Position numbers and translations under genes: made by a program | The notes under the pieces: generated by a model | Told to the model about the DNA's origin: nothing | Database searches by the model: none | What the model saw: the letters and a program-made list of their open reading frames with translations, nothing else | Shown: positions 9,670 to 26,291 of the stretch, one piece after another | Position numbering within the stretch: position 1 is the first letter of the stretch | Layout of the letters: the number at the start of each line of letters is the position of its first letter | Assembly (NCBI GenBank): GCA_913009765.1 | Contig: CAJVYT010000015.1 | Coordinates: 1-26,291, forward strand | From: an uncultured candidate division Zixibacteria bacterium | GTDB taxonomy: Bacteria; Zixibacteria; MSB-5A5; GN15; FEB-12 | Length of the DNA: 26,291 nucleotides | Reading direction: 5' to 3'

Positions 9670-9676
9670 TATAAAA
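9670..9676 (-). promoter_or_regulatory. TATA box for the small membrane protein pair
   Basis: TTTTATA on the minus strand, centred 29 nt before the ATG at 9644. It lies close to the stop of the DUF2080-like gene, so the pair can be transcribed separately. Confidence 0.45.
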
Positions 9677-9682
9677 CCATTC

Positions 9683-9832: not shown

Positions 9833-9885
9833 GATAAAATCAATATAATATAATGGTTTTAACCTTTATAATACTTTTCTTAGCC

Positions 9886-9917
9886 TGCTCCTAAAGTATT
9901 CATCCTGCTCCTAATGT
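9886..9917 (+). repeat. Two direct copies of the 12-bp motif near the right end
   Basis: TGCTCCTAAAGT at 9886-9897 and TGCTCCTAATGT (one change) at 9906-9917, spaced 20 bp apart like the left array. The inverted copy in the right terminal repeat follows at 9932-9943. Confidence 0.75.
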
Positions 9918-9930
9918 CGGCTTAAAAACT

Positions 9931-9948
9931 GACTTTAGGAGCAAAGCC
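9931..9948 (-). repeat. Right 18-bp inverted repeat of the 6.2-kb segment
   Basis: Exact reverse complement of 3770-3787. It ends four bases before the start of the truncated cassette fragment at 9952, as expected if the segment's end coincides with a break in that older gene. Confidence 0.7.
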
Positions 9949-9968
9949 CCAATGAGGGGCAGCTTTTT
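9946..9968 (+). terminator. Stem-loop plus T run
   Basis: GCCCC-AATGA-GGGGC (5-bp GC stem) followed by AGCTTTTT. It looks like an intrinsic terminator reading rightward and overlaps the right inverted repeat. It would shield the segment from, or stop, outward transcription. Confidence 0.4.
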
Positions 9969-10566
9969 ATACGAAATTTTGTTCGAAGATTTACTAAGAG
10001 GAGGTACCAAACTAAATCTTATTCTTCCGGTGATCGTATTTCCCTCAATAGTTGGTGCCCTTATAATGGTTACACTTGTATATTTCTTCCAACAATTAAT
10101 ACTTCTCAAGAGAAGGGGTCATATTTTTTTAATAATTTTTACTTTCATCACGATTACTTTTTGCATTTTTCCAAATATCTATGCTTATGCTCCAAATAAT
10201 GTTATTAATGAATCGAATAATCAAACGAATGGTTCTGTAGGGCCTTTATCTGCAAACACACCATTTAGAGACCTTCTTGCCGATGGTCCCTGGAGGGTTG
10301 AGCCGGGTGAGTCTCAGTTACCAATTTATTTACTAGTTAAAGACGTCTATAACCTTTTTGAGTCCTATTCGTTAGATCATATTGAAATATATGCTGATAT
10401 GGATGGCGATGGCACTCATGAGACCTTTATCAAAAATGTTCCCTACAATCTAATTATATTCCCAAATAATTATCCTGGATTTTATACGATAGGCGATTGG
10501 CATAACACGACAATGGCGGATATAATCGGGACTGATGAAGGCGGTGCGCCCTACGACTTGGCATAA
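9952..10566 (+). CDS. Truncated cassette remnant: membrane segment joined to CehA-like N-terminal domain
   Basis: A 204-residue ORF that looks composite. Residues 22-44 are a membrane helix like the end of the small membrane proteins found before each CehA-like gene. A second hydrophobic stretch (residues 54-75, ending NIYAYA) looks like a secretion signal. Residues 90-190 (LLADGPWRVEPGESQLPIYLLVKDV and IGDW) match the region just before the PHP domain in the two large genes (compare VLADAPWRIEPGDS at 13432). The catalytic PHP part is absent: the ORF stops where it should begin. In the intact cassettes these two parts are separate genes, so a fusion plus truncation has occurred. The ATG at 9952 lies in a hairpin next to the inverted repeat and may not be a real start. 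Probably decayed. Confidence 0.55.
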   Translation: MRGSFLYEILFEDLLRGGTKLNLILPVIVFPSIVGALIMVTLVYFFQQLILLKRRGHIFLIIFTFITITFCIFPNIYAYAPNNVINESNNQTNGSVGPLSANTPFRDLLADGPWRVEPGESQLPIYLLVKDVYNLFESYSLDHIEIYADMDGDGTHETFIKNVPYNLIIFPNNYPGFYTIGDWHNTTMADIIGTDEGGAPYDLA

Positions 10567-10750
10567 AACCCTTCTTTTTCCAGGATACTTTTGTCTCACT
10601 TTTTTTGAGAAAATAGGGCTCATTTTGCCAGTGCGAATATATTTACCTAAGGCGGTAGGGTTATTGCTCTTTTTCGGACTATCGATATTTGTTGGCATTT
10701 TTATTGGGGTACTAGTAGCTAGACTAATTGGATTGATTGGACCTAACTAA
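10535..10750 (+). CDS. C-terminal fragment of a cassette membrane protein
   Basis: A 71-residue reading frame overlapping the end of the preceding remnant by 32 bp. From about residue 13 it aligns with the small membrane protein at 12707: FPGY matches FLPGY, and the final helix with GLSIFVGIFIGVLVARLI matches QGILIGAIILSQIARLL. The first membrane helix is missing, so this is an N-terminally truncated paralogue. Its nominal ATG is inside the preceding ORF. It is followed after 19 bp by a signal-peptide-like ORF, preserving the membrane-protein-then-secreted-protein order. Confidence 0.45.
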   Translation: MKAVRPTTWHKTLLFPGYFCLTFFEKIGLILPVRIYLPKAVGLLLFFGLSIFVGIFIGVLVARLIGLIGPN

Positions 10751-10769
10751 TTAATCTGAGGTATAGTGG

Positions 10770-10904
10770 ATGAGGATGAAGAAGTTTTTTATTTTTTTAT
10801 TGGTGTTGTGTGCGTTAATTTGGATGCCTATTAAGCTCTCGCTTAAATTATCCGTGTTACGGGATAAGTCTTTCTTACACAAGAAAGGATTGGAAGGAGG
10901 GTGA
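10770..10904 (+). pseudogene. Signal-peptide remnant of a further CehA-like gene
   Basis: A 44-codon frame starting MRMKKFFIFLLVLCALIW, a basic N-region and hydrophobic core of the kind that opens both large secreted proteins. After about 20 residues it loses any resemblance and stops. Its position just after a membrane-protein fragment is where a CehA-like gene begins in the intact cassettes, so I read it as the start of a deleted copy. Confidence 0.4.
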
Positions 10905-10913
10905 CATAAAGTG
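10868..10913 (+). repeat. Cassette leader copy 1: hairpin, ribosome binding site, GTG
   Basis: CTTTCTT-ACAC-AAGAAAG forms a perfect 7-bp stem (10870-10887), followed by GGAGGGTGACATAAA and GTGAAG. The same order and much of the sequence recur at 12660-12712 before the intact membrane protein gene. Here nothing recognisable follows the GTG, so the leader has outlived its gene. Confidence 0.55.
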
Positions 10914-11000
10914 AAGCTCGGCCTATGCTACGGGCGGTGTCATGAGCTATGGTGGCGGCTATTATTACGAACTACTGAGAATGGTTTTATAAGTGGAAAT

Positions 11001-11382
11001 TTATCCTTCTTTTTCGAGTATTTTTTCTATTTTTTCTATGAATTTATCAGCATCAGAAACGATTACTTCCGCTTCTTCCATTGTGAACTTGTGTATAACA
11101 TCGTAATCAGCCATTTCTCTAAGAGACTCGGCCTTGGATAACAATACACTATATTCCTTTGAAACAAGCTCTGTTTTGACAAACACTTCCCCAAATTTCT
11201 GGATCAAACCTTTGTGGGTCCTGGGAGATATATCGCGGGTTAAAAGAATTGCTCTAGCGGCATGATACAATCGCATAGTAGGCTCTTCCAATCGCGTCTT
11301 TGGGGCGTTTATGATCTAGTAATATCCGGGCGGTTTCAAGACGCTCATCTGCCTCTGCCAAATGATAGTCAACTCTATCCAA
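11001..11382 (-). pseudogene. HEPN-domain gene with a frameshift (toxin partner of MNT)
   Basis: The HEPN (PF05168-type) protein reads in two frames. From a TTG at 11382, overlapping the stop of the nucleotidyltransferase gene, the frame gives LDRVDYHLAEADERLETARI and on to AIGRAYYAI, then hits a stop. The family continues ...FHAARA, and that text is present one frame away (LYHAARAILL to IEKILEKEG, ending at 11001). One extra base near 11268 accounts for it. HEPN proteins paired with minimal nucleotidyltransferases are RNase-type toxins whose R-x(4-6)-H motif is catalytic, and the break falls between the R (of GRAYYA) and the H (of YHAARA). Either the toxin is dead or the base is a sequencing error. 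The intact downstream frame alone (from 11291) would lack the first helices. Confidence 0.8.
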
Positions 11383-11707
11383 ATACTACACCTTCTCGCT
11401 CAAGGGTCTGAATAAAGGGCATTTGAAGGTCAATCATAGCTTTATATTCTTCAGGTGAAACTATTTTTAAAGAGATTACAACACCATATTCCACAAGGAT
11501 ATCCACTGCAATGTTCTCCAGATCTTCCCACCCCTCAAGAAGCTTTCCCTTCCAAACTACCAGAAGATCAATATCACTTTCCTGAGTATAATCTCCTCTT
11601 GCGTAGCTACCAAATAAAATAACTTTATCGATCCTTTCACTATACTTTTTGTTAACTTCCTGAAGGAATTTTTCTACAGCATTAGGATGCAGCTTATCTC
11701 TGGACAT
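11375..11707 (-). CDS. Minimal nucleotidyltransferase (MNT-type antitoxin)
   Basis: A 110-residue protein of the polymerase-beta nucleotidyltransferase superfamily: LFGSYARGDYTQESDIDLLV gives the GS motif (G33-S34) and the metal-binding D45-x-D47. A third acidic strand (about AVDILVEY) follows. Minimal members of this family are antitoxins that modify or neutralise the HEPN toxin encoded next door; here the HEPN gene follows on the same strand with overlapping ends. A TATA-like TATTTTAT lies about 31 nt upstream. The pair may have arrived with the surrounding mobile debris. Because the toxin is frameshifted, the antitoxin may persist without a target. Confidence 0.87.
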   Translation of the reverse strand: MSRDKLHPNAVEKFLQEVNKKYSERIDKVILFGSYARGDYTQESDIDLLVVWKGKLLEGWEDLENIAVDILVEYGVVISLKIVSPEEYKAMIDLQMPFIQTLEREGVVFG

Positions 11708-11845
11708 ATTTCAATAATCTTCAACCTTCATGGATAAAATACTTTGCCACTACCATGCTGCTATAAAAAATTATAAAACCAAAACAGTCATCTCTCTAAC
11801 TCATTCATTCACTGATTACCTCTACATCTGTGCAACGCGATCTAA

Positions 11846-12016
11846 TATCATCTTGGTATTCTCGTCGAAAAGACGATGCATTATCCTTATGGCAGTGTGC
11901 GTGAAGGTGGAGACTCACGCTATCTTTTCACAGGCAAAGAACTGAGTAAAGACACTGGGCTCTACTATTATGGCGCCATAATAAACGGTGATAAACGTTC
12001 CTTATCGGGATTTTAA
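11846..12016 (+). pseudogene. RHS-repeat core remnant
   Basis: An open stretch without a start codon reads ...MHYPYGSVREGG, then YLFTGKELSKDTGLYYYGA, and soon stops. This is the hallmark junction of RHS/YD-repeat proteins (consensus YDPYG ... FTGKE-D-ETGLYYYGAR), which are large secreted or wall-bound proteins with variable C-terminal toxins. Only about 40 residues remain; no repeats upstream and no toxin domain downstream are visible. It is a fragment left by deletion. Confidence 0.6.
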
Positions 12017-12659
12017 AATAATGCAGTTTCCATATCTCACGAGATCAGTTCTAAAAAACCAACCTTTTTCCCTCCTCCTTATCTACTTATATGAACTTGG
12101 ATAAACATAACTACGCAAACCAGACTAATGATCACAAGTATTCAATCAGTGTTAAATACTAGTTTGTTCGGGGTTCAGCCAAATAATAGTGAAATCCTAA
12201 TACAAGTGTTCGAAGGGACTTTTAGCTGAGCTTTGATGGTGCAGGGATTTTTATCTCCCTGATTTAAATCAACTTTTTATTAATCTAATATTGATTTGCC
12301 AATTTTTAAATGAAATAATCTTATAGAAGAATCTTTCATAATTATTAAATATTATAACAGCGATAGAATCTGGGTGACAGTCTAAATCCAGCTGTCTTGG
12401 GTGTAAGATTTGAGGTATAGGTGGTAAAAGGAAGTTGAGGTTTCAGGTTAGGGGAAAGTGGCAAAATAGAACCAACATAAATAGAAACAGATCGACTTCA
12501 GATTCCACTCTGGCTTTAGATATTCTACGTTCACCTCCCTGCACCACTAATTCTTTTAAACTCAATGTCAATTATGCCGTTGTTCAAGACTTCATTCATT
12601 ATGTTATAAACACTTTCAATTGGAGGATTTGTGATAGCAAATCCGGGTTCTTTGGGTGG
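12017..12659. other. Gene-poor AT-rich stretch
   Basis: No ORF here has a plausible start, composition or family. A short inverted repeat (CAGGGA/TCCCTG, 12242-12261) and AT-rich stretches around 12280-12360 are the only structures seen; the latter may hold the promoter of the downstream four-gene operon. A 91-codon frame (12435-12710) starting at TTG runs through the hairpin leader and overlaps the next ATG, but it has no recognisable content. Confidence 0.5.
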
Positions 12660-12706
12660 CCAAGGCTTTTCTACACAGAAAAGGCTTGGAGGGAGGGTGA
12701 CAAAAT
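12660..12706 (+). promoter_or_regulatory. Cassette leader copy 2: long hairpin before the ribosome binding site
   Basis: CCAAGGCTTTTC (12660-12671), a six-base loop TACACA, and GAAAAGGCTTGG (12678-12689) form a 12-bp stem with one mismatch. GGAGGGAGGGTGA follows at once, then the ATG at 12707. It lacks a T run, so it is more likely an mRNA structure affecting translation or stability, or a DNA site, than a terminator. A shorter version is at 10868-10913. Confidence 0.6.
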
Positions 12707-13045
12707 ATGAAGGCGTGGAAAAAAGGGGCGGTGATTGGTGGAATTTGGGGATTAGTTAGTGTTATTGCTTGGACGGTTTATTCTTATTCTTTAATAGGAA
12801 GTCATGTTTCTCAAACTTCTTTTGGATTAAATTTGGCTAAATTTGTCTTTCTACCTGGATATATAAGTGGGATTATAACTGGTAGTATTACAAATTTTTT
12901 ATATCACCCCACTCCCCCCTATACGGTAAATCGACTTATACAAAATATCTCAATGATAGTTTTTTTCTTACAAGGGATATTAATAGGAGCCATAATCCTT
13001 TCTCAAATAGCTCGACTTCTTGAAAAGAGGAAGGCGGTAAAGTGA
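12707..13045 (+). CDS. Small cassette membrane protein, copy B
   Basis: A 112-residue protein with three to four hydrophobic helices (about residues 9-31, 43-66 and 80-103) and a basic tail (EKRKAVK). Family unknown. It shares with the fragment at 10535 the words FLPGY and a final Gly/Ile-rich helix, and with the 135-residue protein at 15801 the same size, topology and position. It is the first gene of the operon, with a strong ribosome binding site, and its TGA overlaps the GTG of the secreted hydrolase. Being always directly upstream of a CehA-like secreted protein suggests a partner role such as anchoring or export, which is inference only. Confidence 0.8.
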   Translation: MKAWKKGAVIGGIWGLVSVIAWTVYSYSLIGSHVSQTSFGLNLAKFVFLPGYISGIITGSITNFLYHPTPPYTVNRLIQNISMIVFFLQGILIGAIILSQIARLLEKRKAVK

Positions 13046-15804
13046 ATAAGATTTTGCTATCCCTCCTATTAGTACTATTAATCTTCTATTTTTCTCCTCC
13101 AGCATATGCAACAGGGGAAAACGGAACGATGATGCTAAATTTCAGTTCTAACATCTATATTCAAAATGAAAGCGCTCTAAAAAGTCAATTTCAACCCCTC
13201 TATATCAAGATTGTAGAATTTCAAAACAACACACAAAAATCTGTCTGGCAATCATTAATCACTGTTCCGGAGGATACTAAGATATCTTTGCCCTCTGGAA
13301 AATATAAGTTCTATATTCAACTTAAAGGGCATAGAACTATTTGGGAATTGAATAACGAGGGTGAGGGTTATCAAGTTTCTTCCGGAAATGAAACTGTCAT
13401 CCCTCTATTTGGCAATTTTTTAGGCAAAGAAGTACTTGCTGATGCTCCTTGGCGAATTGAACCTGGCGATTCTATTCCCGTACTCGTCATGGTGAAAGAC
13501 GCCAATGAAATTTATGGCGACTACGATTTAGGAAATATTGAATTCTATCGTGACAACGATTGCGACCGAGATCCTAATGAAAACGACGACACACCACTTC
13601 CTTCATACACAGAAACAGCATGGAATGGCTTAATAATAAATAACACTATCTATAATTTATACAAACCGGGTGATTGGTACGGCATCACGAATTTGGACCC
13701 TGCATCTGAGAGTTTAACTGGGGAAGTTTGCTTCCATGCAGTTATAAGGGATATCGGAGGGATATTAGATCCTGATGGCGATACACATAGCTTTTTTACG
13801 GTGAATATAGCAAGTGATCCTTTACCTAGTTTTTGGAACTGGTATTCAGGCGATACCCACTACCATAGCAGTTATACTGATAACAAGTGGGAATTTGGTT
13901 ATCCTGTTGAAGCAACAGTGGAAGCTGGTAAAGCTGTTGGCTTGGAATGGACGACTATTACTGACCATTCCTTTGATCTAGATGATATAAGGACTGGTGA
14001 AACAAATGTTAATCATAAATGGAACTCATTGAAAAATGCTGTTGCTCTTTATCAAAGTGATCCATCCTTCAAACCTATCTTAGGGGAAGAAGTCTCGGTG
14101 AATAGAACCGATGGGAGGATTGGCCATTTTCTGGTTTACGGGATGGAAAACTTCAACAGTATCGGTGGGAGTGGATATGATTTTTTCCCAGGACAGGCAG
14201 ACGAATATTGTGAATGGCATTTTCCCTTACCGCCCTCAGAAGATTATACTTGTAGTGAAACTTGGTCTCTCCAGCAAGCCATAAGTTACGTTAATTCGCA
14301 GGATGGAATTGCTTTTGCAGCACATCCGGGGGATACTGGGACAGCGTTAGGGCGAGGAGGATGGATACAAAGTGATTATGATTTGCCGGGGTATAATGGT
14401 TTAGAAATCTGGAACGCCGTGAGAACAAATGAAACTGATTGGGCAACTCAACTTGAAAACGGCCTAACAGACTGGAAACGATTATTAAAAAATGGACGCC
14501 GAGATGTTTTTATTATAGGTGGAACCGACGCCCATGGCGACTTCAGTCATGAATATAAAAATGACATGGCGCTTTGGCCACCTGATTGCTGCACTTCTGA
14601 AAGCGATAACGCCTATGGCAAGGTTCGTACTGTAGTTTATAGCGATGAGGGGCTAACTGAAAACGGTATTCTGGAGGGCTTAAAAAATGGCCATTCAATA
14701 ATGACAGACGGTCCTCTAGTAACCTTTACAATAAACAATGAAATCATCGGTAATACGACAGAAATTGCCTATGAAACTTCTCCTACCTTGGAAATTAGCT
14801 GGAAATCTTCACCCGAGTTCGGAGACGTTGGGAACATAAAAATATATCGTGGTGATTCAACAGGTGAAACGAAAGTCTTTGATAATCATCCGAGTCTTCT
14901 CCCGGGAGGTTATAGCGGAACCTTACAGGATGGTTACGCTACTTGGACAGATCCAACTACGTTGACTCTAAACTCCTACTACAGGATTGAAGTTCAATCC
15001 TCCGTAGGATTCCCACCTAATAATGTGGACTATAGAGCCTACACCAACCCTATCTGGGTTGATGTGTGGCCTTATTGCACTGTTTCACAGGGAGCCTCAA
15101 TTAGCATTCAACAAACATGTATAGACGATCCTGATCCCCCCGAAGCCCCTTCTCTAGTTTGGCCCAGCTCCGGTGAGACCATCGCTGACAGCACGCCAAC
15201 GTTTGTGTGGAACCGGCCTAACGACACTGGCAGCGGTGTTGATTACTATCAAATCGATGTTGACGGCACAAGTAATTTCTATGGAGACACTTCCCCACAG
15301 CCATCTTACACTTGGCCAAGCGCTTTGAGCAACGGACCTCATACGTGGAAGGTGCAGGCTAGAGACGGCGCAGGAAACTACGGCAACTGGAGCGAGACAA
15401 GAACGTTTATCGTTGACACTTCAAACGATCAGCAGACCACAGCCGGGACTATTTCTGAAACTCATGCCTGCGACTCGATAACCGTCACCGCAACCTATAG
15501 TGGTGATGTGGACAACGACGGCTCAGCCACCCTCGACTATAAGCTGTCTTCATCAGGCACATGGGGCGGCGGTATTGGAATGACAGATCAGGGCACACAA
15601 TACCAAGAAACAATCTCAGGACTAAGCGAAAGCGCAAACTATGACGTCAGAGTGACATATAACGATCCAGATGGAGTCATACCACCCGGGAACAACGTAC
15701 AAACAATAACGGGAATAAACACCGGAAGCTGCCCGATAAATAATCCACCTTACGATGTGGTGATACAATCACCACTTAGGGGCGTGATGGAGGCGCAATT
15801 ATGA
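13042..15804 (+). CDS. Secreted CehA/McbA-like PHP-domain metallohydrolase, 920 aa
   Basis: The GTG start gives a signal peptide (MNKILLSLLLVLLIFYF ... AYA). Residues 28-265 form a beta-rich N-terminal region. The PHP metal-binding domain follows: D271-x-H273-x-H275 (DTHYHSSYTDN), TDHS (D308, H309), GEE (E349-E350), H362, AHP (H428) and GTDAHGD (D496, H498). This is the full ligand set for a polynuclear metal centre, typical of phosphoesterase or CehA-type amide/ester hydrolases. Residues 590-690 are a beta domain, and 697-910 two FN3/Ig-like domains nearly identical in DNA to those of the next gene. The protein then ends abruptly (SPLRGVMEAQL) exactly where its paralogue begins another domain, so the C-terminus looks truncated. 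It acts outside the cell; the substrate is unknown. Many N-x-S/T sites. Confidence 0.88.
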   Translation: MNKILLSLLLVLLIFYFSPPAYATGENGTMMLNFSSNIYIQNESALKSQFQPLYIKIVEFQNNTQKSVWQSLITVPEDTKISLPSGKYKFYIQLKGHRTIWELNNEGEGYQVSSGNETVIPLFGNFLGKEVLADAPWRIEPGDSIPVLVMVKDANEIYGDYDLGNIEFYRDNDCDRDPNENDDTPLPSYTETAWNGLIINNTIYNLYKPGDWYGITNLDPASESLTGEVCFHAVIRDIGGILDPDGDTHSFFTVNIASDPLPSFWNWYSGDTHYHSSYTDNKWEFGYPVEATVEAGKAVGLEWTTITDHSFDLDDIRTGETNVNHKWNSLKNAVALYQSDPSFKPILGEEVSVNRTDGRIGHFLVYGMENFNSIGGSGYDFFPGQADEYCEWHFPLPPSEDYTCSETWSLQQAISYVNSQDGIAFAAHPGDTGTALGRGGWIQSDYDLPGYNGLEIWNAVRTNETDWATQLENGLTDWKRLLKNGRRDVFIIGGTDAHGDFSHEYKNDMALWPPDCCTSESDNAYGKVRTVVYSDEGLTENGILEGLKNGHSIMTDGPLVTFTINNEIIGNTTEIAYETSPTLEISWKSSPEFGDVGNIKIYRGDSTGETKVFDNHPSLLPGGYSGTLQDGYATWTDPTTLTLNSYYRIEVQSSVGFPPNNVDYRAYTNPIWVDVWPYCTVSQGASISIQQTCIDDPDPPEAPSLVWPSSGETIADSTPTFVWNRPNDTGSGVDYYQIDVDGTSNFYGDTSPQPSYTWPSALSNGPHTWKVQARDGAGNYGNWSETRTFIVDTSNDQQTTAGTISETHACDSITVTATYSGDVDNDGSATLDYKLSSSGTWGGGIGMTDQGTQYQETISGLSESANYDVRVTYNDPDGVIPPGNNVQTITGINTGSCPINNPPYDVVIQSPLRGVMEAQL
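15130..15773 (+). repeat. Direct repeat copy 1 (about 640 bp) of paired FN3/Ig-like domains
   Basis: Nearly the same DNA recurs at 18308-18945 with a 6-bp indel. The flanking N-terminal and PHP parts of the two genes are far more diverged, so this stretch has been homogenised or copied recently. Confidence 0.85.
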
Positions 15805-16208
15805 AAGAGAAGAAATTGAATTGGAAATTATTGTTAATCGTTATCTTTTTAGGCCTGTTATCTTATTTTGTGATGGGTCTCTGGAAAGTTGGTTTATTGG
15901 TAAGCGTTTTTGGAATATTAGTACTTCTGGTATATTACTTGAAAGAACTATGGGTGAAAACAGGCATTATAGGATTAATTTATGGCTATGTCGGTCCAAG
16001 TCTTTTATTTGCACTAAGCATCTACGGTGGCGCTGGAAGCAGGAAAATAGCCTTAATTTTTTATCCATCAGTCATTACAAAAATGAAATTAGATTTTTTA
16101 TCTATTTTGTATGGGAATACGGTTTATATCTTTTCTCAAGTGTTATTTTGGTTTTCCATCGGAGCTGTAATTGGTTTAATTTATCAAAAGTGGAGGGAAA
16201 GAAGATGA
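15801..16208 (+). CDS. Small cassette membrane protein, copy C
   Basis: A 135-residue protein with a basic N-terminus (MKEKKLNWK) and about five hydrophobic helices, ending with the basic KWRERR. It occupies the same place as the 112-residue protein before the first CehA-like gene: GGAGG 7 nt before the ATG, an ATGA overlap with the preceding gene and another ATGA overlap with the following one. Sequence likeness to copy B is weak (the last helix IGAVIGLIYQKW compares with LIGAIILSQIARLL), so common descent rests partly on position. Function unknown. Confidence 0.78.
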   Translation: MKEKKLNWKLLLIVIFLGLLSYFVMGLWKVGLLVSVFGILVLLVYYLKELWVKTGIIGLIYGYVGPSLLFALSIYGGAGSRKIALIFYPSVITKMKLDFLSILYGNTVYIFSQVLFWFSIGAVIGLIYQKWRERR

Positions 16209-19200
16209 AACAATTTTTCTTAATTGCGGTACTATTAATATTCATTTTGCCAGGATTTGTAGGTGCCTCAGAAAATGGCACGATAACTTTGGATTTTACT
16301 TCAAACCTCACCATTCAAGGGACAACTCGATTCCAACCATTATTCATTCAAATTGCGGAGGTAAAGCCTAACAAGGAAACAATTATCTGGGAATCTTTAA
16401 TAGAGTCTCCGAATGACATTAATATTTCTGTAGTACCTGGCGAGTATAAGTTATATTACAAAGCGCAAGGCCATAGAACAATCTGGGAACTTGATAATGA
16501 AGGGGTAAATTACAATGTTTCATCATCAGATAATCTGATCTTGCCATTGTATGCCAATGAACCAGGTCTTAAAGAGGTTTTTGCAGATGGGCCTTGGAGA
16601 ACGGTGAACAACCAGATACCTATATTTTTATTGGTGAAGGATACTGATAATCTTCAGTGTTGTGGATTGGACGATTATGACTTGGGCAATGTGGAGATTT
16701 ACCAGGACACCAATTGTGATTGGGACAATGACGAAGGTTCAGACTCACTTCTAACAACAGAGACTAGGTGGAGCGGGACAACAATTAACGCAACTCAAAA
16801 TGGCAATCTATATTTCCCGGGGGATTGGTACGGCATTACTTATCTCGATGCTTCTCTTTATGGCATAAGTGGGAATGCATGTTTCCATGTGGTTATCAGA
16901 GATATCGGTGGTATTACGGATTTAGATGGCGATACTCACAGTCATTTTAATGTTTCAGTTGGTGTGGGGGATTTACCTTCTTTGGAGGATTGGTATGCTG
17001 GGGATGTACATTACCACAGTTATTATACTGATAATAATGTAGAGGTTGGAGCACCAATTGAAGCAACCGTGGAAGCAGGGAAATCCATTGGACTTGACTG
17101 GGTCACCATAACTGACCATTCATTTGATCTTGATTCTTATATGTGGGACACTGAGTATAACAGACTATTTGATGAAGAGGGAAAATGGGATGACTTTGGA
17201 AATGACTGTAAAGATGTATCACAGGGAGGTCATTCAGATTCTGAATTTAAATGTATAAGAGCTGAAGAAATATCAGTTCAAAACGCCAATGGAAAATTTG
17301 TTCATCTTTTAGGGTATAATATAAGTGTTAACATAGATGGCGAAGGTGCAGATGGATTGGGGTGGTACTATCCCAAAGAATTTAACTTAGACCTAGTGGG
17401 CAGTGATGGTCTCGATGATACTTCCATTACTTTTAATCTTCCACAGGTGATTACATGGATCAATGCACAAGGTGGTTTTGCATATGCTTCGCATCCAGCA
17501 TATCAACCGCCTAGTTTACCACCGTTAAATAGAGACATTTGGCAAACAGCAGATTATAACTTGATATTTGATGGTGATCCGAACAATGATTATTCAGGTC
17601 TTGAAGTTTGGAACTCTATAGGAAATGAAACCTACCGAGATGCAGGGATAACGAAATGGAAAGAACTCCTAAGAAACGGTGAAACGGTTTACATCTCAGG
17701 AGGCAGTGATGCACACGGCGATTTCAGTCACGGCTCAAAGCTGGATTGGACGGGAGTTGAACGAACTGATAATAATTTTGGGAAAGTGCGTACTGCGGTT
17801 TACGTCCCGGGTTACTCTCAAAGCAGTGTTCCACCTCAAACCGAAATTCTTAACGCTTTAAGAGATGGCCATTCCATCATGACCGACGGCCCTCTCATCA
17901 GTTTTACAGTTTACGATTACACTACTGGAGTCGAGAAGAGTATTGGGAACACATTAGCGGTTGGAGCTGACACTAACCTTGGCATTGACATAAGAGGTGC
18001 ATCTAGTCCTGAGTTCGGGAGCACAATCTACTATACTCTCTGGTACGGTGTAATAAATGAAAATGAAAGTATAATAGACTCAGGAAGCTTCCCTGCCTAT
18101 CCAAGTGGACTCGATTGGATTTACATTAATACAGCCGATTTCCCGATTTACAACCAGCCCGGTTATTTCAGGATCGAGGCGAACTCGACAGACTCAAACG
18201 GCGTTACCCATAGAGCATATACAAACCCGATCTGGATTGATGTAGTTCCATATTGTCCTGCTTCTCAAGGCTCTTCTTTCAGCATTCAACAAACCTGCGT
18301 TACCGATCCTTTCCCGCCCGAAGCTCCGACCCTTGTCTGGCCCGGCCCCAGCGAGACCATCGCTGACAGCACGCCAACGTTTGTGTGGAACCGGCCTAAC
18401 GACACTGGCAGCGGCGTTGATTACTATCAGATCGATGTTGACGGCACGGTTAATTTCTATGGAGACACCTCTCTACAGCCATCCTACGCTTGGCCAACCA
18501 CCTTGAGCAATGGGCCTCATACTTGGAAAGTGCAGGCACGGGATGGCGCAGGAAACTACGGAAACTGGAGCGAGACGAGAACGTTTATTGTTGACACGTC
18601 TAATGACCAGCAGATCACGGCAGGCACGATCAGCGAGACTCATGCCTGCGATTCCATAACCGTCACAGCAACCTACTCTGGCGATGTGGACAACGACGGA
18701 TCCGCAACCTTAGATTACAAGCTGTCTTCATCAGGAACATGGGGCGGTGAGATTGCGATGATTGACCAGGGTACACAGTACCTAGAAACAATCTCAGGAC
18801 TAAGCGAAAGCACAAACTATGACGTCAGAGTGACATATAACGATCCAGATGGAGTGGTGGGAGCCAACCCGCAGACTATAACCGCGATAAACACCGGCAG
18901 CTGCCCTGTAAATAACCCACCCTACGACGTAGTGATCGAATCACCCGCAGACGGAGCAACATACAACCTCGGCGACACTATAACCTTTGACAGCAAACTA
19001 CCCAGAGACCCAGAAGACGGTTGGCTTCCAGACACAGCAAGCATATGGACCTCAAGCATTGACGGATACCTCGACATTGGCTGGTACTTCACTCGAACAG
19101 ACCTCAGCAGCGGAACCCATACTATAACACTCAATGTTACAGACAGCCAGGGCGCAAGCACAATAGACCAAGTCACAATAACGGTGAATGCTCCCGGAGG

Positions 19201-22200
19201 AGGGGAAACCAACGACCTAGCAGTCTCCAACGTCTACACAAACCCACTATACCCCACATCCAGCCAGTCCTTCAACGTATATTACACCGTAACAAACGAA
19301 GGTCAAAACACTGAAAATACAATAAACGTAAACCTATATGTCGACGGTTCAAAAGTCTCCTCACAGTTTGCGGACGGACCATTAAAAACACAAACAATCA
19401 CAATGCTGGCACCCGGAGAATCCCAGCAGGACTACTTCTCAATATCACGGCCAGAGGGAAGTTACCAGCTAGATGTCGAGGTAGAGCAAGTAGTAGGAGA
19501 GACCGACATCTCTGATAATACTGGCTCTACAACCGTTGACGTCGGAGCGCCCGGACCACTCACAATCGAAATCCAGACACCCAATGGAGGTGAATTGGTA
19601 CAACCAGACGGAAGCTCAAATTGGATATGGTGGGTCCCACCGCCCAATACACAACATAATTGGGACATATATTGGGGGCGGACCAGCAACCCCGGAGTAT
19701 GGAATTTAATTAGAGCCGGCTGGACACAGCTTAACGAATATCCAGTCAATCGTAACGAAGAAGATGAGGATGTTTCAACATATCCTGATGCAAATGATTA
19801 CCTAATAAAAGTCGTTCATTTGGATGAAAATAATATAGAAGATGCATCAGATATTTCTGACGGTGCTTTTACCATACGAAACTACCCATCGTTCACCGGA
19901 CTAGGTGGAGCAATCGACGCTGGAACCGGAGACGCAGTAGATCTATTCTGGAACACGGCAACAGACCCCAGTACCCCTGTCACATACAATATTTACATAT
20001 CTACAACAAGTGGTGGACAAGACTTTACCACACCAAATTACACCACACAGAATCTCGTGTACCAGGTAACAAACCTGACAACTGACCAGACATACTATTT
20101 CGTCGTCAGGGCCGAAGATGCCGCCGGAAACGAAGAAAGTAACACAGTGGAAAAAAGCGCAACCCCCACAACAACCGGCGGAATGCCGGATTTGATAGTT
20201 AACTCAACAAACCCCACAACACTCTCAGGAACCAAGATGTTCAATAAAGTATGGATACAAAACGGAGGAACCTTAACTGCTGCAGGAACACTCGTGCTAA
20301 ACGCCGACACAATCCAGATCGATGCAGGCGGTAAAATCGCCGCAGATGGATGGGGTAGAACCAATGAGGACCACCCACCAGAAGGCACAGCACCGCTAGA
20401 CGATACTAAATCAGATTCTTACTGTTACCTGGCGGGTAAAGCCACTCAAGGAGCTGGCGGCGGAGCCTATGGAGGATCTGGAGGGATGGGGGGATGGGCA
20501 CCATTTAATAGTATAACAGGCGATGATTGCGAGGATTATTGGCCCTATGGCACAAACGGTTTCGCAGGAGCAGGGGCAGCGTCATATGGGTCGGCAGGGG
20601 GGCAGACGATTCAAGAGGGGATGGAAGGAGGGACACAACAATGGAAATCAAGTCATAATGACCTTGGGGATGGAGGATTTGGCGGTGGAGCAATTACACT
20701 CAATGCTCGTCTAATAAATAATAGTGGAATAGTAACAGCAGATGGAGATACAGGTGGCACCGCTGGGTTGTGTTCTGGAGGTTACTACTGCACCGGAAAA
20801 GGGGGTGGCAGCGGCGGAGGAATCCTCGTAATAGCCCAGGATTATATCTGTAACAGTGGGTTATTCTCAGCAGATGGCGGAGACGGTGGCGGCGGAACAG
20901 ACCATGTAGCTGGTGGAGGAGCAGGAGGTGGAGGCAGAATAAAGATATTCTATGGAACAAAAAATGAAAATTCATGTGCCTTGACCGTAGACCCAGGAAT
21001 TAGGGGGACTGGGTATTATGCAAATGCTTCTTATGCAGCTAGCGGAACAAGTTATTATGAAGACAATCTTCCTCCAATCATTACCATCGATTCTCCAACA
21101 GATTCAATCTACAGCAGCAGCCTGGTCGATTTGAAATACTCAGTAAATGAACCTACGTCCTGGGAGGCTATAAGTGTCAACGGTGGAATAAATCAAACCG
21201 GAGGAAATCAGACCCTCACAGGACTTCCAGAAGGACAGAATAATGTTACAGTCTATGCAAATGACACCGCCGGAAACCTGGCTTCAAAAACAGTCTGGTT
21301 CAATATTATAGTCAATGAAGCACCCACTATCACAAACTATTCTCCAGTAGCCAATCCAACAATCAATGAAGGCCAATCTCAGGACTTTGGAATCATAGTA
21401 TCTGATCCAGATGGCGATTTCCTAACGTACCAATGGGCATTAAACGGAACTGTCGTTGCGACTACACAAAACTATACTTATGTTGCGGATTATGATAGCG
21501 CTGGTGTTTATAACGCAAAGGTAACTGTATCAGATGGCGAGCTTACAGATTCGCAGGAATGGAACCTCACAATTATTTATGTAAATCTCCCTCCAGTTCT
21601 AGGTCAAATCGGGAATAAATTCATACAAGAGAACCAAACCCTCGAGTTCACAGTTTTAGGTTCAGACCCAGATAATGATCAGTTAACCTACTCTGCATCA
21701 AATCTACCACCAGGCGCTCAATTCAATGCTACCAATAGAACATTCACATGGGCCCCTACACTTGGTCAAAACGGAACATATGTAGATGTTCATTTTGAAG
21801 TTACAGACGGACAATACATTGACGGTGAAAACATCAACATAACCGTCATTGATGTGGACATAACCCCGCCGACAATCACAAACGTCTCCCACTCTCCACA
21901 GAATCCAACTGACCAGGATAATATCACCGTATCAGCAAATGTCAGCGACAATGTTGGCGTTGACAGTGTATGGGTCAATTACACCACCGATGGTTGGGCA
22001 AACTATACTGTCAAGGAGATGACCGAAACACAGCCACAGTCACAATCATCTCCCGGCATCTATGAAGACACGGAAGGCAAGCACAAGAAAGATGAGGTCA
22101 AGAAAAAGGATAAGAAAGTGAAGGAGAAGAAAAAGAAGAAGGTAGTCATTAAACACAAACCTGGAAAAAAACCTCTCAAAGGCGAGATAGAGAGATTGAA

Positions 22201-25200
22201 CGGCACAAAAGCCAGAGACCTTGACAAAATAGAATCAATAGTTGTCGAAGTCGATGACATCACTAAATTTGTAACGGAGATGAAGAAAAATCCAGATGTG
22301 GAATCAGTTGAAGAGGCAGTCGTTTATCAAGCCCTACTCACACCCACTGATACCTATTACCCCGAGCAATGGAACATGGAAAACATTAACGCAGAAGAGG
22401 GCTGGAACAATGCACTCGGAAGCAATGTAACAATAGCCATAATCGACACTGGTGTAGACTACACCCACCCAGATCTCGATGACAACGTAATACTTGGTTA
22501 TGACTGGGTAAACGATGACAGCGACCCCATGGATGACAATGGCCACGGCACCCATGTAGCAGGAATCGCCGCAGCCGAGCTGAACGGCATCGGAGTAGTC
22601 GGAACCTCGCCCGGATCAAACATACTAGCAATGAAGGTGCTCGACGCATCAGGAGCAGGCTATGACTACGATGTCGCCGCTGCAATCATAAGCGCCACCG
22701 ATTCTGGAGTTGACATAATCAGCCTCAGCCTCGGCGGCGGATACTCAACAGTAATCGAAGACGCCTGCAACTATGCCAATAGCAGAGGAGTTTTAATCAT
22801 AGCAGCCGCTGGTAACACAGGTGGAAGCGTCCTATACCCCGCAGCACTTGACACAGTCATCGCCGTCTCATCCCTTAACTCGGATAACACAATCTCAAGC
22901 TTCAGCTCCAGAGGCCCGCAGATAGAGCTCAGCGCACCAGGAGGCGGAGACCGGCTCATCTATTCCACATATCCCAACAACGCCTTTGCATGGGCCTCCG
23001 GCACATCCATGGCCGCACCCCACGTCAGCGGAGTCGCAGCCCTAGTGAAATCCATGCACCAAAACTGGACAAACACAGAAATCAGAAATTATCTACAATC
23101 AACAGCAACCGACCTCGGTGCAGCCGGTAAAGACAATCTCTATGGATACGGGCTCATCGATGCCAGCAAGATAACCGGAAACACCACCGAACCAAGCCCA
23201 CCAACTTCAGCCTATAACGACAGCAAGATTGAACTAACCCTTTCAGCTGATGAATCGTCCTCACCGACAACGGTGGGAATCACTTTAACCGCGAAGCATG
23301 ACATGAACAAAGTCCGACTGAAAGACACGATTATCAATGGAAGCACAATTACAAATATCAATTCCAGCAAAGGCAAGGTCAAATTCGGAAGACCCCACAA
23401 GGGAAATGAGAGAAACCTGGACTGGAACATCGGACACATTAAATCTGGCGAAACCTATACCCTCACCTTCGACATAGAAAACACTGGCTGCATTGACACA
23501 GGTGCAACCGTGGAAGGAAAAATTGGCAAGGAAAAATATGTTTCTGGAGAAACAGATCCATTGTGCTTGACAAGTGGAACTGAAGTTAGCACACTCCAAA
23601 CCCAAGGCACATATACCAAGGATATCGGAAAATTCCCAGCAGACACAACAGTTGAGTACTATATTGTCGCATATGACACTGCAGGAAATGAAAATTCAAC
23701 AAGCGATGACATAAAAACTGTATATGTTTCTGATAGGACACCCCCCTCATTGATTGAATTCGTCCCGCCAACAGACATCAATGGTTCAACTCTAATAAGG
23801 AACTATTCCTTTATCAATGTAACAGCCTCCGATAACATAGGCGTTGATTCAGCCCTTCTTGAATGGAATAACTCAAATGAGTCCATGACCAAGGAAGGAA
23901 GTGGTCCTACAGCTACGTTTTATACGAATAAGACCGACCTCGCAAACGGTGTCTACACCTACAGAGTATGGGTCAATGACACATCGGGCAACTGGAATGT
24001 AAGTGAAACACGGAATGTAACAATTGACATAAATCAACCACCAACAACAGCAGACGATTATGCAACCCTATCTGAGGGAGGTTCAGTCAACATTAATGTA
24101 GCTGCCAATGACACTGATCCTGATGACGGTCTCAATCTATCATCTATAGTAGTTACCTCTGGTCCAAGCAATGGTGGAGTAGTTGTGAATGCAGATGACA
24201 CCATTGATTATACTCACGATGATAGTGAGACAACATCTGACTCATTTAATTACACGATAGAGGATAATTCCGGTGCGGTAAGCAACGAGGGAATTGTCTC
24301 AATCACTGTAACAGCTGTCAATGACCCGCCCATGGCCGTGGATGACTCTGGCACTGTAGCTGAAGAAGGTTCAGTCTTGGTAGATGTTCTTGCAAACGAC
24401 AATGACCCTGACAGCACACCCACAATCCAGTCCTTCACACAGGGAACATATGGGATCGTATCTGGGGTTGCGGGGCAGCTCCAATATGTTCATGATGGCA
24501 GTGAAACAACATCTGATAGTTTCACATACAACCTAACTGATGGGGAGTTTACTGGCACTGCCACAGTATCTATAACAATAACTCCAGTAAATGATCCGCC
24601 AACAGCATTAAATGATTCATACAGCATTGATGAGGATGCCGCCCTCAATGTATCTGCTCCGGGGGTCCTAGGAAACGATACTGATGCAGATAGTGTCAGT
24701 CTCACAGCGGTCTTGGTCAGCAATGTCAGCAACGGCGGGCTCACACTCAGCCCTGACGGCTCATTCAATTACGCCCCAAACCCCAGTTACAGTGGTTCTG
24801 ACAGCTTCGAATACAAGGTCAACGATGGCACTGTCAACAGTAGTGTCACTACGGTAAACATCATCGTGAATCCTGCACCGACAACAACAAGTACTACAAC
24901 AACCACTACATCTACAACCACGACAACGATTCCAACGACGACAAGCACCTCCACAACAACAACAACTTCCAGTACTACCACCACAACCCTCCTGCCATCT
25001 ACCTCTCCAATAATAACCTGGGAATCTCCAACACCCGCCGATGGCGCTACTGTTAATGAGAATAGTGTCTATCTTAACACGACCATAACAGATGACAGCG
25101 ACACTTCTGCTTTCTTTGACTGGAATCGTAGCCTTGTAGGTTACTGGTCTATGGACTATTACAACTCAACAGGCGTCTTTGACAACTCAACCTACGACAA

Positions 25201-26291
25201 TTTCGGTTCTTTCAACGGTGGAGTGGGAACCGGTAACCTAGTCAATGGAAAGTATGGGAACGCCTTGGAGTTTGATGGTGTGGATGACTATGTTAATGTA
25301 GGGAGCGATACAAGCTTAAATCTTATCACTAATCTTACAATTGAAGCATGGATATACCCAATAGGTTGGGGAGAGGCAAGTGGAACTGGCTACGGAAGGA
25401 TAGTTGATAAGGGTAAATTCCTTTTATATCTCCACAATGAGACTTTTTCAGGGTACAATGACTATAGTTTAGTTTGGACTCCGGAAATCGGCGGCTCTAA
25501 TAAACCCGTAAACACACCAGCCAATTCGCTTTCTTTAAACACCTGGCAACATGTTGCAGTAACTTATGATGGGACAACTACCAAGATATATATCAACGGA
25601 CAGAGCCAACCCCTCATTTATTATTATGAAGCACCCTCTGGCAATATAGATGACAATAGTGCATTCGACCTCTTTATTGGTGAATCTGCTGCAGGAACTA
25701 GAGCATTCAACGGCACAATCGATGAAGTTATGCTTTTCAATAGGCCTTTATCAGCAGAGGAAATCAAAGCTTCTTACAACAACGGCTTGTACAGGCTGCA
25801 AAACAACTTCACGGAGCTAGCTGACGGCACCTATGAGTACTCAGCTTATGCGATTGACACAGACGGAAATTTGAATGTTTCTGATTACAGGAGTGTTACG
25901 GTAGACACATCTCCTCCAACTACCACGACAACCAGCACTACTACGACAACCTCGACCACTACCACGACGTCAACGACCTCAACTTCCACGACAACTACCT
26001 CTACCACAACATCAAGCACCACTACTACAACTCTCCCGCCAGCTATCAGTCCATCGATAACCTGGGAATCCCCCACTCCAAACGATGGCGCTACTGTTAA
26101 TGGGGATTATGTCTATCTGAACGCCACTATAACAGATGACACTGATACCTCCGCATTCTTCGATTGGAATCGTAGCCTTGTAGGTTATTGGTCCATGGAC
26201 TTCTATAATGCAAACGGAGTGTACGACAACTCAACCTATAACAACTTTGGAACCTTCAACGGAGGATTGGGAACCAATAACGTTGTTGAAG
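16205..26291 (+). CDS. Giant secreted PHP hydrolase-subtilisin-LamG surface protein (3' end outside window)
   Basis: The frame is open from the ATG at 16205 to the edge, 3,362 codons. Order: signal peptide (1-21, GFVGA); beta region; PHP hydrolase with D267-H269-H271, D304-H305, E354-E355, H367, H430, D502 and H504; two FN3/Ig-like domains (about 700-905); PKD-like (905-996); CARDB-like (1003-1114); a beta domain and FN3 (to 1322); a Gly-rich domain (about 1326-1590); Ig/cadherin-like domains (1621-1882); an Ig-like domain split by a protease module (1885-2510); another Ig-like; three tandem VCBS/cadherin-like domains (2610-2892); Thr-rich linker; LamG (about 3014-3195); a second Thr-rich linker; a second LamG module starting. 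The subtilisin triad is D2081, H2114, S2268, with N2204. It is likely cell-surface anchored beyond the window; the role (adhesion, polymer degradation or predation) is inference. Confidence 0.9.
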   Translation, partial: MKQFFLIAVLLIFILPGFVGASENGTITLDFTSNLTIQGTTRFQPLFIQIAEVKPNKETIIWESLIESPNDINISVVPGEYKLYYKAQGHRTIWELDNEGVNYNVSSSDNLILPLYANEPGLKEVFADGPWRTVNNQIPIFLLVKDTDNLQCCGLDDYDLGNVEIYQDTNCDWDNDEGSDSLLTTETRWSGTTINATQNGNLYFPGDWYGITYLDASLYGISGNACFHVVIRDIGGITDLDGDTHSHFNVSVGVGDLPSLEDWYAGDVHYHSYYTDNNVEVGAPIEATVEAGKSIGLDWVTITDHSFDLDSYMWDTEYNRLFDEEGKWDDFGNDCKDVSQGGHSDSEFKCIRAEEISVQNANGKFVHLLGYNISVNIDGEGADGLGWYYPKEFNLDLVGSDGLDDTSITFNLPQVITWINAQGGFAYASHPAYQPPSLPPLNRDIWQTADYNLIFDGDPNNDYSGLEVWNSIGNETYRDAGITKWKELLRNGETVYISGGSDAHGDFSHGSKLDWTGVERTDNNFGKVRTAVYVPGYSQSSVPPQTEILNALRDGHSIMTDGPLISFTVYDYTTGVEKSIGNTLAVGADTNLGIDIRGASSPEFGSTIYYTLWYGVINENESIIDSGSFPAYPSGLDWIYINTADFPIYNQPGYFRIEANSTDSNGVTHRAYTNPIWIDVVPYCPASQGSSFSIQQTCVTDPFPPEAPTLVWPGPSETIADSTPTFVWNRPNDTGSGVDYYQIDVDGTVNFYGDTSLQPSYAWPTTLSNGPHTWKVQARDGAGNYGNWSETRTFIVDTSNDQQITAGTISETHACDSITVTATYSGDVDNDGSATLDYKLSSSGTWGGEIAMIDQGTQYLETISGLSESTNYDVRVTYNDPDGVVGANPQTITAINTGSCPVNNPPYDVVIESPADGATYNLGDTITFDSKLPRDPEDGWLPDTASIWTSSIDGYLDIGWYFTRTDLSSGTHTITLNVTDSQGASTIDQVTITVNAPGGGETNDLAVSNVYTNPLYPTSSQSFNVYYTVTNEGQNTENTINVNLYVDGSKVSSQFADGPLKTQTITMLAPGESQQDYFSISRPEGSYQLDVEVEQVVGETDISDNTGSTTVDVGAPGPLTIEIQTPNGGELVQPDGSSNWIWWVPPPNTQHNWDIYWGRTSNPGVWNLIRAGWTQLNEYPVNRNEEDEDVSTYPDANDYLIKVVHLDENNIEDASDISDGAFTIRNYPSFTGLGGAIDAGTGDAVDLFWNTATDPSTPVTYNIYISTTSGGQDFTTPNYTTQNLVYQVTNLTTDQTYYFVVRAEDAAGNEESNTVEKSATPTTTGGMPDLIVNSTNPTTLSGTKMFNKVWIQNGGTLTAAGTLVLNADTIQIDAGGKIAADGWGRTNEDHPPEGTAPLDDTKSDSYCYLAGKATQGAGGGAYGGSGGMGGWAPFNSITGDDCEDYWPYGTNGFAGAGAASYGSAGGQTIQEGMEGGTQQWKSSHNDLGDGGFGGGAITLNARLINNSGIVTADGDTGGTAGLCSGGYYCTGKGGGSGGGILVIAQDYICNSGLFSADGGDGGGGTDHVAGGGAGGGGRIKIFYGTKNENSCALTVDPGIRGTGYYANASYAASGTSYYEDNLPPIITIDSPTDSIYSSSLVDLKYSVNEPTSWEAISVNGGINQTGGNQTLTGLPEGQNNVTVYANDTAGNLASKTVWFNIIVNEAPTITNYSPVANPTINEGQSQDFGIIVSDPDGDFLTYQWALNGTVVATTQNYTYVADYDSAGVYNAKVTVSDGELTDSQEWNLTIIYVNLPPVLGQIGNKFIQENQTLEFTVLGSDPDNDQLTYSASNLPPGAQFNATNRTFTWAPTLGQNGTYVDVHFEVTDGQYIDGENINITVIDVDITPPTITNVSHSPQNPTDQDNITVSANVSDNVGVDSVWVNYTTDGWANYTVKEMTETQPQSQSSPGIYEDTEGKHKKDEVKKKDKKVKEKKKKKVVIKHKPGKKPLKGEIERLNGTKARDLDKIESIVVEVDDITKFVTEMKKNPDVESVEEAVVYQALLTPTDTYYPEQWNMENINAEEGWNNALGSNVTIAIIDTGVDYTHPDLDDNVILGYDWVNDDSDPMDDNGHGTHVAGIAAAELNGIGVVGTSPGSNILAMKVLDASGAGYDYDVAAAIISATDSGVDIISLSLGGGYSTVIEDACNYANSRGVLIIAAAGNTGGSVLYPAALDTVIAVSSLNSDNTISSFSSRGPQIELSAPGGGDRLIYSTYPNNAFAWASGTSMAAPHVSGVAALVKSMHQNWTNTEIRNYLQSTATDLGAAGKDNLYGYGLIDASKITGNTTEPSPPTSAYNDSKIELTLSADESSSPTTVGITLTAKHDMNKVRLKDTIINGSTITNINSSKGKVKFGRPHKGNERNLDWNIGHIKSGETYTLTFDIENTGCIDTGATVEGKIGKEKYVSGETDPLCLTSGTEVSTLQTQGTYTKDIGKFPADTTVEYYIVAYDTAGNENSTSDDIKTVYVSDRTPPSLIEFVPPTDINGSTLIRNYSFINVTASDNIGVDSALLEWNNSNESMTKEGSGPTATFYTNKTDLANGVYTYRVWVNDTSGNWNVSETRNVTIDINQPPTTADDYATLSEGGSVNINVAANDTDPDDGLNLSSIVVTSGPSNGGVVVNADDTIDYTHDDSETTSDSFNYTIEDNSGAVSNEGIVSITVTAVNDPPMAVDDSGTVAEEGSVLVDVLANDNDPDSTPTIQSFTQGTYGIVSGVAGQLQYVHDGSETTSDSFTYNLTDGEFTGTATVSITITPVNDPPTALNDSYSIDEDAALNVSAPGVLGNDTDADSVSLTAVLVSNVSNGGLTLSPDGSFNYAPNPSYSGSDSFEYKVNDGTVNSSVTTVNIIVNPAPTTTSTTTTTTSTTTTTIPTTTSTSTTTTTSSTTTTTLLPSTSPIITWESPTPADGATVNENSVYLNTTITDDSDTSAFFDWNRSLVGYWSMDYYNSTGVFDNSTYDNFGSFNGGVGTGNLVNGKYGNALEFDGVDDYVNVGSDTSLNLITNLTIEAWIYPIGWGEASGTGYGRIVDKGKFLLYLHNETFSGYNDYSLVWTPEIGGSNKPVNTPANSLSLNTWQHVAVTYDGTTTKIYINGQSQPLIYYYEAPSGNIDDNSAFDLFIGESAAGTRAFNGTIDEVMLFNRPLSAEEIKASYNNGLYRLQNNFTELADGTYEYSAYAIDTDGNLNVSDYRSVTVDTSPPTTTTTSTTTTTSTTTTTSTTSTSTTTTSTTTSSTTTTTLPPAISPSITWESPTPNDGATVNGDYVYLNATITDDTDTSAFFDWNRSLVGYWSMDFYNANGVYDNSTYNNFGTFNGGLGTNNVVE
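18308..18945 (+). repeat. Direct repeat copy 2 of paired FN3/Ig-like domains
   Basis: Partner of 15130-15773, at a constant offset of 3178 bp until a 6-bp indel near the end (3172 afterwards). Confidence 0.85.
20440..20960 (+). other. Glycine-rich domain coding region within the giant protein
   Basis: Residues of about 1412-1586 are dominated by Gly runs (GGGAYGGSGGMGG, GGGSGGG, GGDGGGG), with Cys residues between. The preceding part (QNGGTLTAAGTLVLNA) has the repetitive strand pattern of a beta-helix. Confidence 0.7.
22025..23605 (+). other. S8 subtilisin module inserted in an Ig-like domain
   Basis: Residues about 1941-2467 of the giant protein. The parts are a Gln/Ser linker, a very Lys-rich segment (about 1958-1994), an inhibitor-I9-like propeptide (about 1983-2052), the catalytic domain (IIDTGVDYTHPD, HGTHVAG, GTSMAAPHVSG) and a beta domain. 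The Ig-like half before it (1885-1940, ending WANYTVKEMT) and the half after it (2468-2510, GTYTKDIGKFPADTTVEYY) together make one ordinary domain. Confidence 0.75.
24881..24990 (+). repeat. Thr-rich linker 1 (ACN-codon repeat)
   Basis: Runs of Thr broken by Ser, Ile and Pro, about 37 residues, with mixed Thr codons. It is a probable O-glycosylated stalk between the cadherin-like domains and the first LamG module. Confidence 0.85.
25015..26291 (+). repeat. Tandem 1044-bp module: ITWESPTP domain + LamG + Thr linker
   Basis: The module beginning AACCTGGGAATC at 25015 starts again at 26059, exactly 1044 bp (348 codons) later. The second copy runs off the window after about 78 codons, with high nucleotide identity including GATTGGAATCGTAGCCTTGT in both. 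Confidence 0.85.
25916..26036 (+). repeat. Thr-rich linker 2 (ACN-codon repeat)
   Basis: About 40 residues of Thr with scattered Ser, ending TLPPA, the counterpart of linker 1 at the end of the first LamG module. Confidence 0.85.

Follow-up and report, generated by a model that had tools for sequence, protein, structure and literature searches.

A giant open reading frame pairs a CehA/McbA-type PHP hydrolase with a subtilase apparently set within an Ig-like domain

What kind of protein is encoded by a reading frame that runs for 3,362 codons and carries two unrelated hydrolases? The frame lies on the forward strand at 16205-26290 of the window, the whole stretch of 26,291 nucleotides that was analysed; it holds no stop codon and its 3' end is cut by the contig end. 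The initial annotation had read it as a single open frame of at least 3,362 codons bearing two complete, unrelated hydrolases on an adhesin-type scaffold, and translation together with domain scans confirms this. A domain search with the translation of 16205-26291 recovered a CehA/McbA-type PHP domain, PF00082, CARDB, LamG and cadherin-type repeats. The order is signal peptide, CehA/McbA-type PHP hydrolase, a stalk of Ig, CARDB and cadherin-type domains, prodomain plus subtilase, and LamG with Thr-rich stalks. Both enzymes retain their catalytic residues within this one frame and the pair recurs in other proteins. We give a probability of roughly 0.5 to the reading that this is a secreted modular two-enzyme protein, with an ester/phosphoester hydrolase as its head and a stalk that bears a self-maturing subtilase and would be kept in one piece by the halves of an Ig-like domain.

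All features of the giant frame are on the forward strand. The signal peptide at residues 1-22 (16205-16270) shows a hydropathy of 2.56 over 19 residues, with the cleavage site placed by eye. Two N-terminal beta domains follow at residues 24-253 (16274-16963), as indicated by strands in an AF2 model; the second carries the family motif D-x-P-W-R, with conserved columns D128, P130, W131 and R132. The CehA/McbA-type PHP hydrolase occupies residues about 258-560 (16976-17884). It scores 93.6 bits against NF038032 (CehA/McbA family metallohydrolase; cut-off 80), fold matches assign it a PHP fold, and alignment yields a conserved metal-binding His/Asp set. The ligands named initially (D267, H269, H271, D304, H305, E354, H367, H430, D502 and H504) are all present in the alignments, as is the proposed protease triad. 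A sequence search of the PHP part against the PDB gave one weak match, 3e0f (E 0.0025). At E <= 1e-20 the PHP family was found in 2 of 34 genomes in the phylum of L001. The head is most likely a secreted phosphoester or ester hydrolase. Described CehA and McbA are carbamate hydrolases that require conserved histidines, according to the available part of PMC8292978; because these enzymes cleave carbamates, a phosphoester substrate is a guess.

An Ig-like domain follows the PHP part at residues 562-683 (17888-18253), with AF2 and fold matches from residue 562. The stalk then contains a CARDB domain at 1003-1106 (19211-19522; PF07705) and a Gly-rich region at 1414-1595 (20444-20989) resembling the AgmC N-terminal domain (NF047640, below cut-off). 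Behind the subtilase module described below, an uninterrupted Ig-like domain at 2513-2608 (23741-24028) was recognized by alignment and by PF19077 over 2543-2608. It is followed by tandem-95, cadherin-like and Big_9 repeats with approximate limits (24032-24880; NF012211, PF17963, PF17803) and by a Thr-rich stalk of tandem repeats (24881-24971). Further downstream, a LamG domain at 3024-3188 (25274-25768; PF13385) is flanked by two Ig pieces: 2936-2976 (25010-25132), with 33% identity to the intact Ig 2513-2608, and 3201-3234 (25805-25906), with 53%. A pairwise test matched this intact Ig to the pieces on either side of LamG (E 5e-6 and 4e-10), which indicates that LamG is nested in another Ig-like domain of the giant protein. 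Tandem repeats and the translation place a second Thr-rich stalk, followed by the start of a second Ig/LamG unit that is cut off, at 25919-26028, and the DNA at 24879-25237 is repeated at 25926-26281 with 75% identity.

The protease sits midway in the stalk. Its S8 catalytic domain (22418-23152) aligns to PF00082 over the full length, 1-288 of 288, and keeps the Asp/His/Ser triad D2081, H2114 and S2268; the mycosin model TIGR03921 scores 217.4, below its cut-off of 278.75. A prodomain at about 1976-2049 (22130-22351) precedes it, aligning with pro-subtilisins from model residue 92, and the prodomain family PF22148 is found in the relatives P0006 and P0007. Six proteins carry the module, and in all of them the prodomain aligns between an Ig half and the protease. 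The aligned proteins have a Lys-rich stretch ahead of the prodomain. For the interrupted Ig-like domain of the window protein, we located the N-terminal half at 1885-1942 (21857-22030; positions 1-61 of 86 in a profile of uninterrupted copies, 34.1 bits) and the C-terminal half at 2465-2508 (23597-23728), where a weak match of 5.8 bits covers 2465-2492 with positions 58-85 of 86. A further beta domain at about 2330-2455 (23192-23569) separates S8 from the C-terminal half; by alignment it is present in P0001, P0006, P0007 and P0110 and absent from P0002 and P0117.

Several profile comparisons bear on this nesting. Half-profiles built from the six module proteins place the two Ig halves 395-523 residues apart in all six, matches that arise there by construction. 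The same half-profiles find uninterrupted copies with a gap of 16-22 residues between the halves in P0002, P0117 (two copies) and P0030, with C-half scores of 2.2-8.0 bits and some printed pairings that join unrelated domains. A profile from these four copies alone matches the six N-halves at 30-43 bits, the P0001 match extending into the insert, and four C-halves at 2-6 bits at its complementary end. With a profile of 33 rows from uninterrupted copies, 32 of them distinct, all six N-halves fall within positions 1-61 of 86 (15.7-38.7 bits). C-halves match it weakly (5.8-11.5 bits) within positions 50-86 in 4/6 proteins, and no C-half match was found in P0002 and P0117 with this profile. An AF2 model of the module is modest overall (pLDDT 65.6, pTM 0.49), and the strands in both Ig halves reach a pLDDT of about 70-90. 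Taken from sequence comparison, the interpretation of a pro-subtilase nested inside one Ig-like domain of the stalk is well supported. In the phylum of L003 (a Methanosarcinales record), 34 of 294 genomes have a match at E <= 1e-90; the 43 matches listed lie within profile positions 78-532 of 616 and reach neither Ig half. The phylum of L013 (a Nanoarchaeota record) gave a single match, at positions 87-433, in 279 genomes. Both scans scored no more than four candidates from each genome, so modules could be missed.

Is the joining of the two enzymes an accident of assembly? GC content rises from 0.41 to 0.50 near position 18000 in the giant gene, as might be seen if two genes had been fused into a chimera. 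A like rise (0.39 to 0.47) occurs in the paralogue at 13042-15804. A search among giant proteins with residues 1-700 gave eight relatives, three of which (P0002, P0006 and P0007) also carry PF00082 in a Pfam scan, with the enzymes in the same order and each on a separate contig. We therefore rejected an assembly artefact and give a chimera of two genes practically no weight. These proteins also answer the search for homologues holding both enzymes and, together with proteins of reverse order from Planctomycetota, leave the earlier idea of a unique pairing unsupported. By Pfam annotation the other 5/8 giant relatives have no S8. PF00082 was likewise absent among the 100 matches listed for the 920-residue neighbour described below (510-1,455 residues, the neighbour included), and S8 was found in the CehA frame of 0/14 archaeal loci from the genome collection. 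The fusion of PHP followed by S8 thus appears to be real but uncommon. A scan of viral_contigs gave no relative that would point to a viral origin. Among other large proteins, L061 has a 3,713-codon frame at 9467-20605 with a CehA-type match and no S8 found (record titled Candidatus Stahlbacteria). The CehA-headed giant P0008 matches the thioredoxin-like NF041057 (below cut-off) and PGF-pre-PGF in its later part, perhaps another enzyme paired with a CehA head.

Comparison of the relatives suggests that the head may be replaceable. The scaffolds of P0002 (706-3402) and P0117 (262-2501) align in four collinear pieces with 36-52% identity. The head of P0002 is a PHP domain, whereas the N-terminal 128 residues of P0117 match the alkaline phosphatases PafA and PhoK (E 7e-4 and 3.5e-3, PDB sequence search) and not PHP; a Pfam scan of this 128-residue head fragment gave no match. 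P0030 has a PHP head and shares 61% identity with the P0117 scaffold over 459 residues. The simplest reading, resting on one short match, would be that phosphatase-like metallo-hydrolase heads are exchanged on one S8-bearing scaffold. If true, this would point to phosphate or ester removal as the task of the head. A wider class of secreted proteins could be envisaged, with interchangeable PHP and alkaline-phosphatase-type heads, a nested self-cutting subtilase that severs the backbone and a split Ig holding both pieces; we regard this generalization as rather doubtful.

Pairing of the two enzymes is also found in Planctomycetota. One scan of the genome collection (79 loci) gave both enzymes in four frames, L066, L071, L074 and L079, whose records all bear the title Planctomycetota. 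The PHP profile has matches in 21 of 149 Planctomycetota genomes. From 34 match places we obtained 35 CehA-type frames, 19 with S8 in the same frame and always before PHP; S8 is absent from the other 16, of which 4 run off the contig at the 5' end. The fusions comprise these 19/35 frames plus L066, and the proteins with both enzyme types in one frame are L066, L071, L074, L079, L194 and 15 of L164-L183. PHP scores in the fusions are 35-84 bits with our in-house profile. In the four proteins found first, the S8 catalytic residues are kept, and the similarity of the region ahead of PHP to the D-x-P-W-R domain is weak (at most 4.1 bits). All four are below the cut-off of NF038032 (L074 26.3 of 80 bits, the others without a match), so their CehA-type label comes from the in-house profile and the ligand motifs. 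The L194 frame spans 3,120 codons on the reverse strand (1640-10999); its S8 occupies 1821-2073, and a weak match to PHP follows at 2774-2849.

In a midpoint-rooted tree of 95 S8 domains, which included every fourth protein of P0111-P0226, the six nested domains group in one clade (support 0.924), apart from the Planctomycetota fusions, which belong to another (1.0). Rows labelled halo in this tree include Planctomycetota genomes as well as Nanoarchaeota and Nanohalarchaeota records; L089, L090, L091, L097 and L099 lie in the Planctomycetota clade and the stand-alone L087 elsewhere. The combination of S8 and CehA-type PHP therefore seems to have arisen at least twice, separately and in opposite order. 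Two such origins argue for a functional link between S8 and PHP, with chance co-occurrence still conceivable, and the pairing in two lineages hints at a joint substrate. This weighs against neutral modular accretion, in which scaffolds gain domains freely and PHP and S8 are independent and without joint purpose, as does the fact that the one exchanged head is another phosphatase-type enzyme. S8 modules are nevertheless common in large proteins, with 2,900 of 7,986 scored candidates matching P0007 1515-2140 at E <= 0.001, and LamG is nested in the giant protein too. Further, P0110 carries the same Ig[S8]Ig module with 62% identity to the window over 635 residues on a different scaffold, where an N-terminal subtilase-like stretch and beta-helix domains stand in place of PHP. 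Weighing these points, we consider accretion without joint purpose possible yet rather improbable.

The giant gene is preceded by partial copies of its own unit, all on the forward strand. A small membrane protein of 135 residues (15801-16208; open reading frame and translation) overlaps the giant gene by 4 bases. Upstream of it, a second CehA-type gene of 920 residues (13042-15804; NF038032 119.4 bits) ends inside the shared scaffold, with 82% DNA identity between 15032-15773 and 18210-18945. Another small membrane protein (112 residues, 12707-13045; open reading frame and translation) bears a W-KKGA-GG motif and overlaps the 920-residue gene by 4 bases. At 9952-10566 we found, by eye in the translation and with no family match, a remnant of a third family member with a D-x-P-W-R type N-terminal region. 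Compared with the giant in 50-residue steps, residues 1-700 of the 920-residue protein show 30-66% identity and residues 701-900 show 85-94% (82% in DNA). So sharp a step in identity from head to scaffold suggests that recombination or gene conversion has taken place. Since the scaffold is 82% identical in DNA and the heads are much more divergent, one may speculate that tandem partial copies beside the giant gene could act as a store from which heads are exchanged by recombination.

In 9/14 archaeal loci (L002, L004, L006-L010, L013 and L026) a motif W..KGA..GG occurs no more than about 510 bases upstream of the PHP match, and in L039 it lies at -748; it was not found in L001, L003, L005 and L024, the last with 283 bases upstream. 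The motif was written after the sequences had been seen and without a background rate, and half of the L007 stretch was masked. The 112-residue protein resembles the N-terminus of P0005 in a pairwise test (E 3e-8) and has no significant similarity to the 135-residue protein (E 0.29). The small membrane protein as a conserved partner of the CehA-type gene may be taken as a lead. A 51-base leader occurs twice, at 10866-10916 and 12662-12712 (80% identity), with one copy reaching into the beginning of the small membrane gene at 12707; the repeat may be the trace of a third, decayed copy of the unit. A DDE transposase with a SWIM zinc finger is encoded at 8050-9342, near the decayed copies. Other genes of the window include, on the reverse strand, an acylphosphatase domain followed by tandem 7-residue repeats (3188-3721; HTGILSE type, a 21/42-base tandem repeat), a type I restriction-modification specificity subunit and a methylase with an HSDR_N-type N-terminus (3843-7627), and an MNT-type nucleotidyltransferase (11375-11707) whose adjoining stretch may be its partner gene. 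For a geranylgeranyl-reductase-type gene, 10 of 12 genomes gave matches; identity does not exceed 33% where the match is longer than 200 residues and rises to 50% in short stretches of 30-40. Named relatives of the 920-residue CehA-type neighbour, together with this reductase-type gene, make the archaeal origin proposed initially appear likely.

The initial annotation had named polymer degradation and cell-cell attack as possible roles. For the latter, in which the giant protein would be a weapon against neighbouring cells, the locus offers a decayed RHS/YD-repeat core piece at 11860-11990, recognized by eye (HYPYGSVREGGDSRYLFTGKEL...DTGLYYYGA), with no intact gene around it. The domain scans made gave no toxin, immunity or delivery family, and PADLOC gave no defence match other than its general model for subtilases and weak IetS scores for the S8 part. 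The proposal of cell-cell attack thus found no support and is very improbable, while polymer degradation is plausible.

For the secreted two-enzyme protein we infer autocleavage, an Ig clamp, a substrate and a location as follows. Subtilases fold with their prodomain and then remove it by self-cleavage. The subtilase of the giant protein would likewise fold with its prodomain and cut itself free of it. This cut inside the nested insert would break the backbone, and the two halves of the Ig sandwich would keep the chain pieces joined, because the cut lies inside an insert nested in the Ig domain. In its mature form the stalk would have an active protease halfway along and an esterase or phosphatase at its tip. 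LamG and cadherin-type domains may bind glycans or neighbours, and both enzymes might work on one external polymer, removing proteins as well as phosphoryl or acyl groups from it.

The same arrangement could instead work as a release switch, in which the subtilase, with the giant protein itself as its substrate, cuts its own stalk after secretion and thereby frees the PHP head or all of the outer part. A prodomain and protease mid-stalk with long chains on either side would suit such a switch, as would the Lys-rich stretch before the prodomain and the hydrophilic tail of P0002, which is without a C-terminal hydrophobic segment in a sequence whose end may not be the gene end. Shedding is unlikely, however, since nesting in one Ig domain would hold the pieces together, and in the Planctomycetota fusions S8 instead precedes PHP. 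As for location, PHP-only relatives carry PGF-pre-PGF (P0003 and P0008), an S-layer domain (P0003) and C-terminal hydrophobic segments, so some CehA-type family members are likely cell-surface proteins. The surface location proposed initially is accordingly supported for the family, where signal peptides are found as well, whereas the C-terminus of the window protein lies beyond the contig.

The individual domains are known; new here, within the literature searched, are the pairing of the enzymes, the nesting of the protease and the proposed exchange of heads. No PHP-subtilase fusion, subtilase nested in an Ig domain or head exchange was found among the matches listed from open-access literature (titles and abstract openings), and the available part of the main text of a 2008 survey of serine-protease architectures (PMC2605481) is without the terms PHP, phosphoesterase or inserted. 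The natural role of the CehA-type hydrolase family is poorly known, and a pro-protease nested in an Ig domain gives the testable idea of a stalk with a self-activating protease that stays in one piece.

Four known or newly found groups can be set beside the giant protein. With the CehA/McbA family (NF038032) of the PHP superfamily it shares a score above the cut-off, the PHP fold and the His/Asp ligands; it differs in its signal peptide and giant stalk from the carbamate hydrolases described so far (PMC8292978, available part). The CehA-type proteins P0003-P0005 with the S-layer domain PF07752 have the same N-terminal region and PHP, with 41-42% identity to the window protein, but are without S8 by Pfam annotation, P0003 scoring with the S-layer family TIGR01567 and PGF-pre-PGF. 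The Planctomycetota proteins resemble it in having both enzyme types per frame and, in the four found first, a weak match to the pre-PHP domain, whereas their S8 precedes PHP and its profile match (positions 90-435) ends short of both Ig halves. Finally, pro-subtilisins of the S8/PF00082 family such as Tk-subtilisin (2e1p) and pro-subtilisin E (3whi) share the prodomain, catalytic domain and triad, while the pro-protease of the window protein appears wholly nested in an Ig-like domain and is paired with a PHP enzyme.
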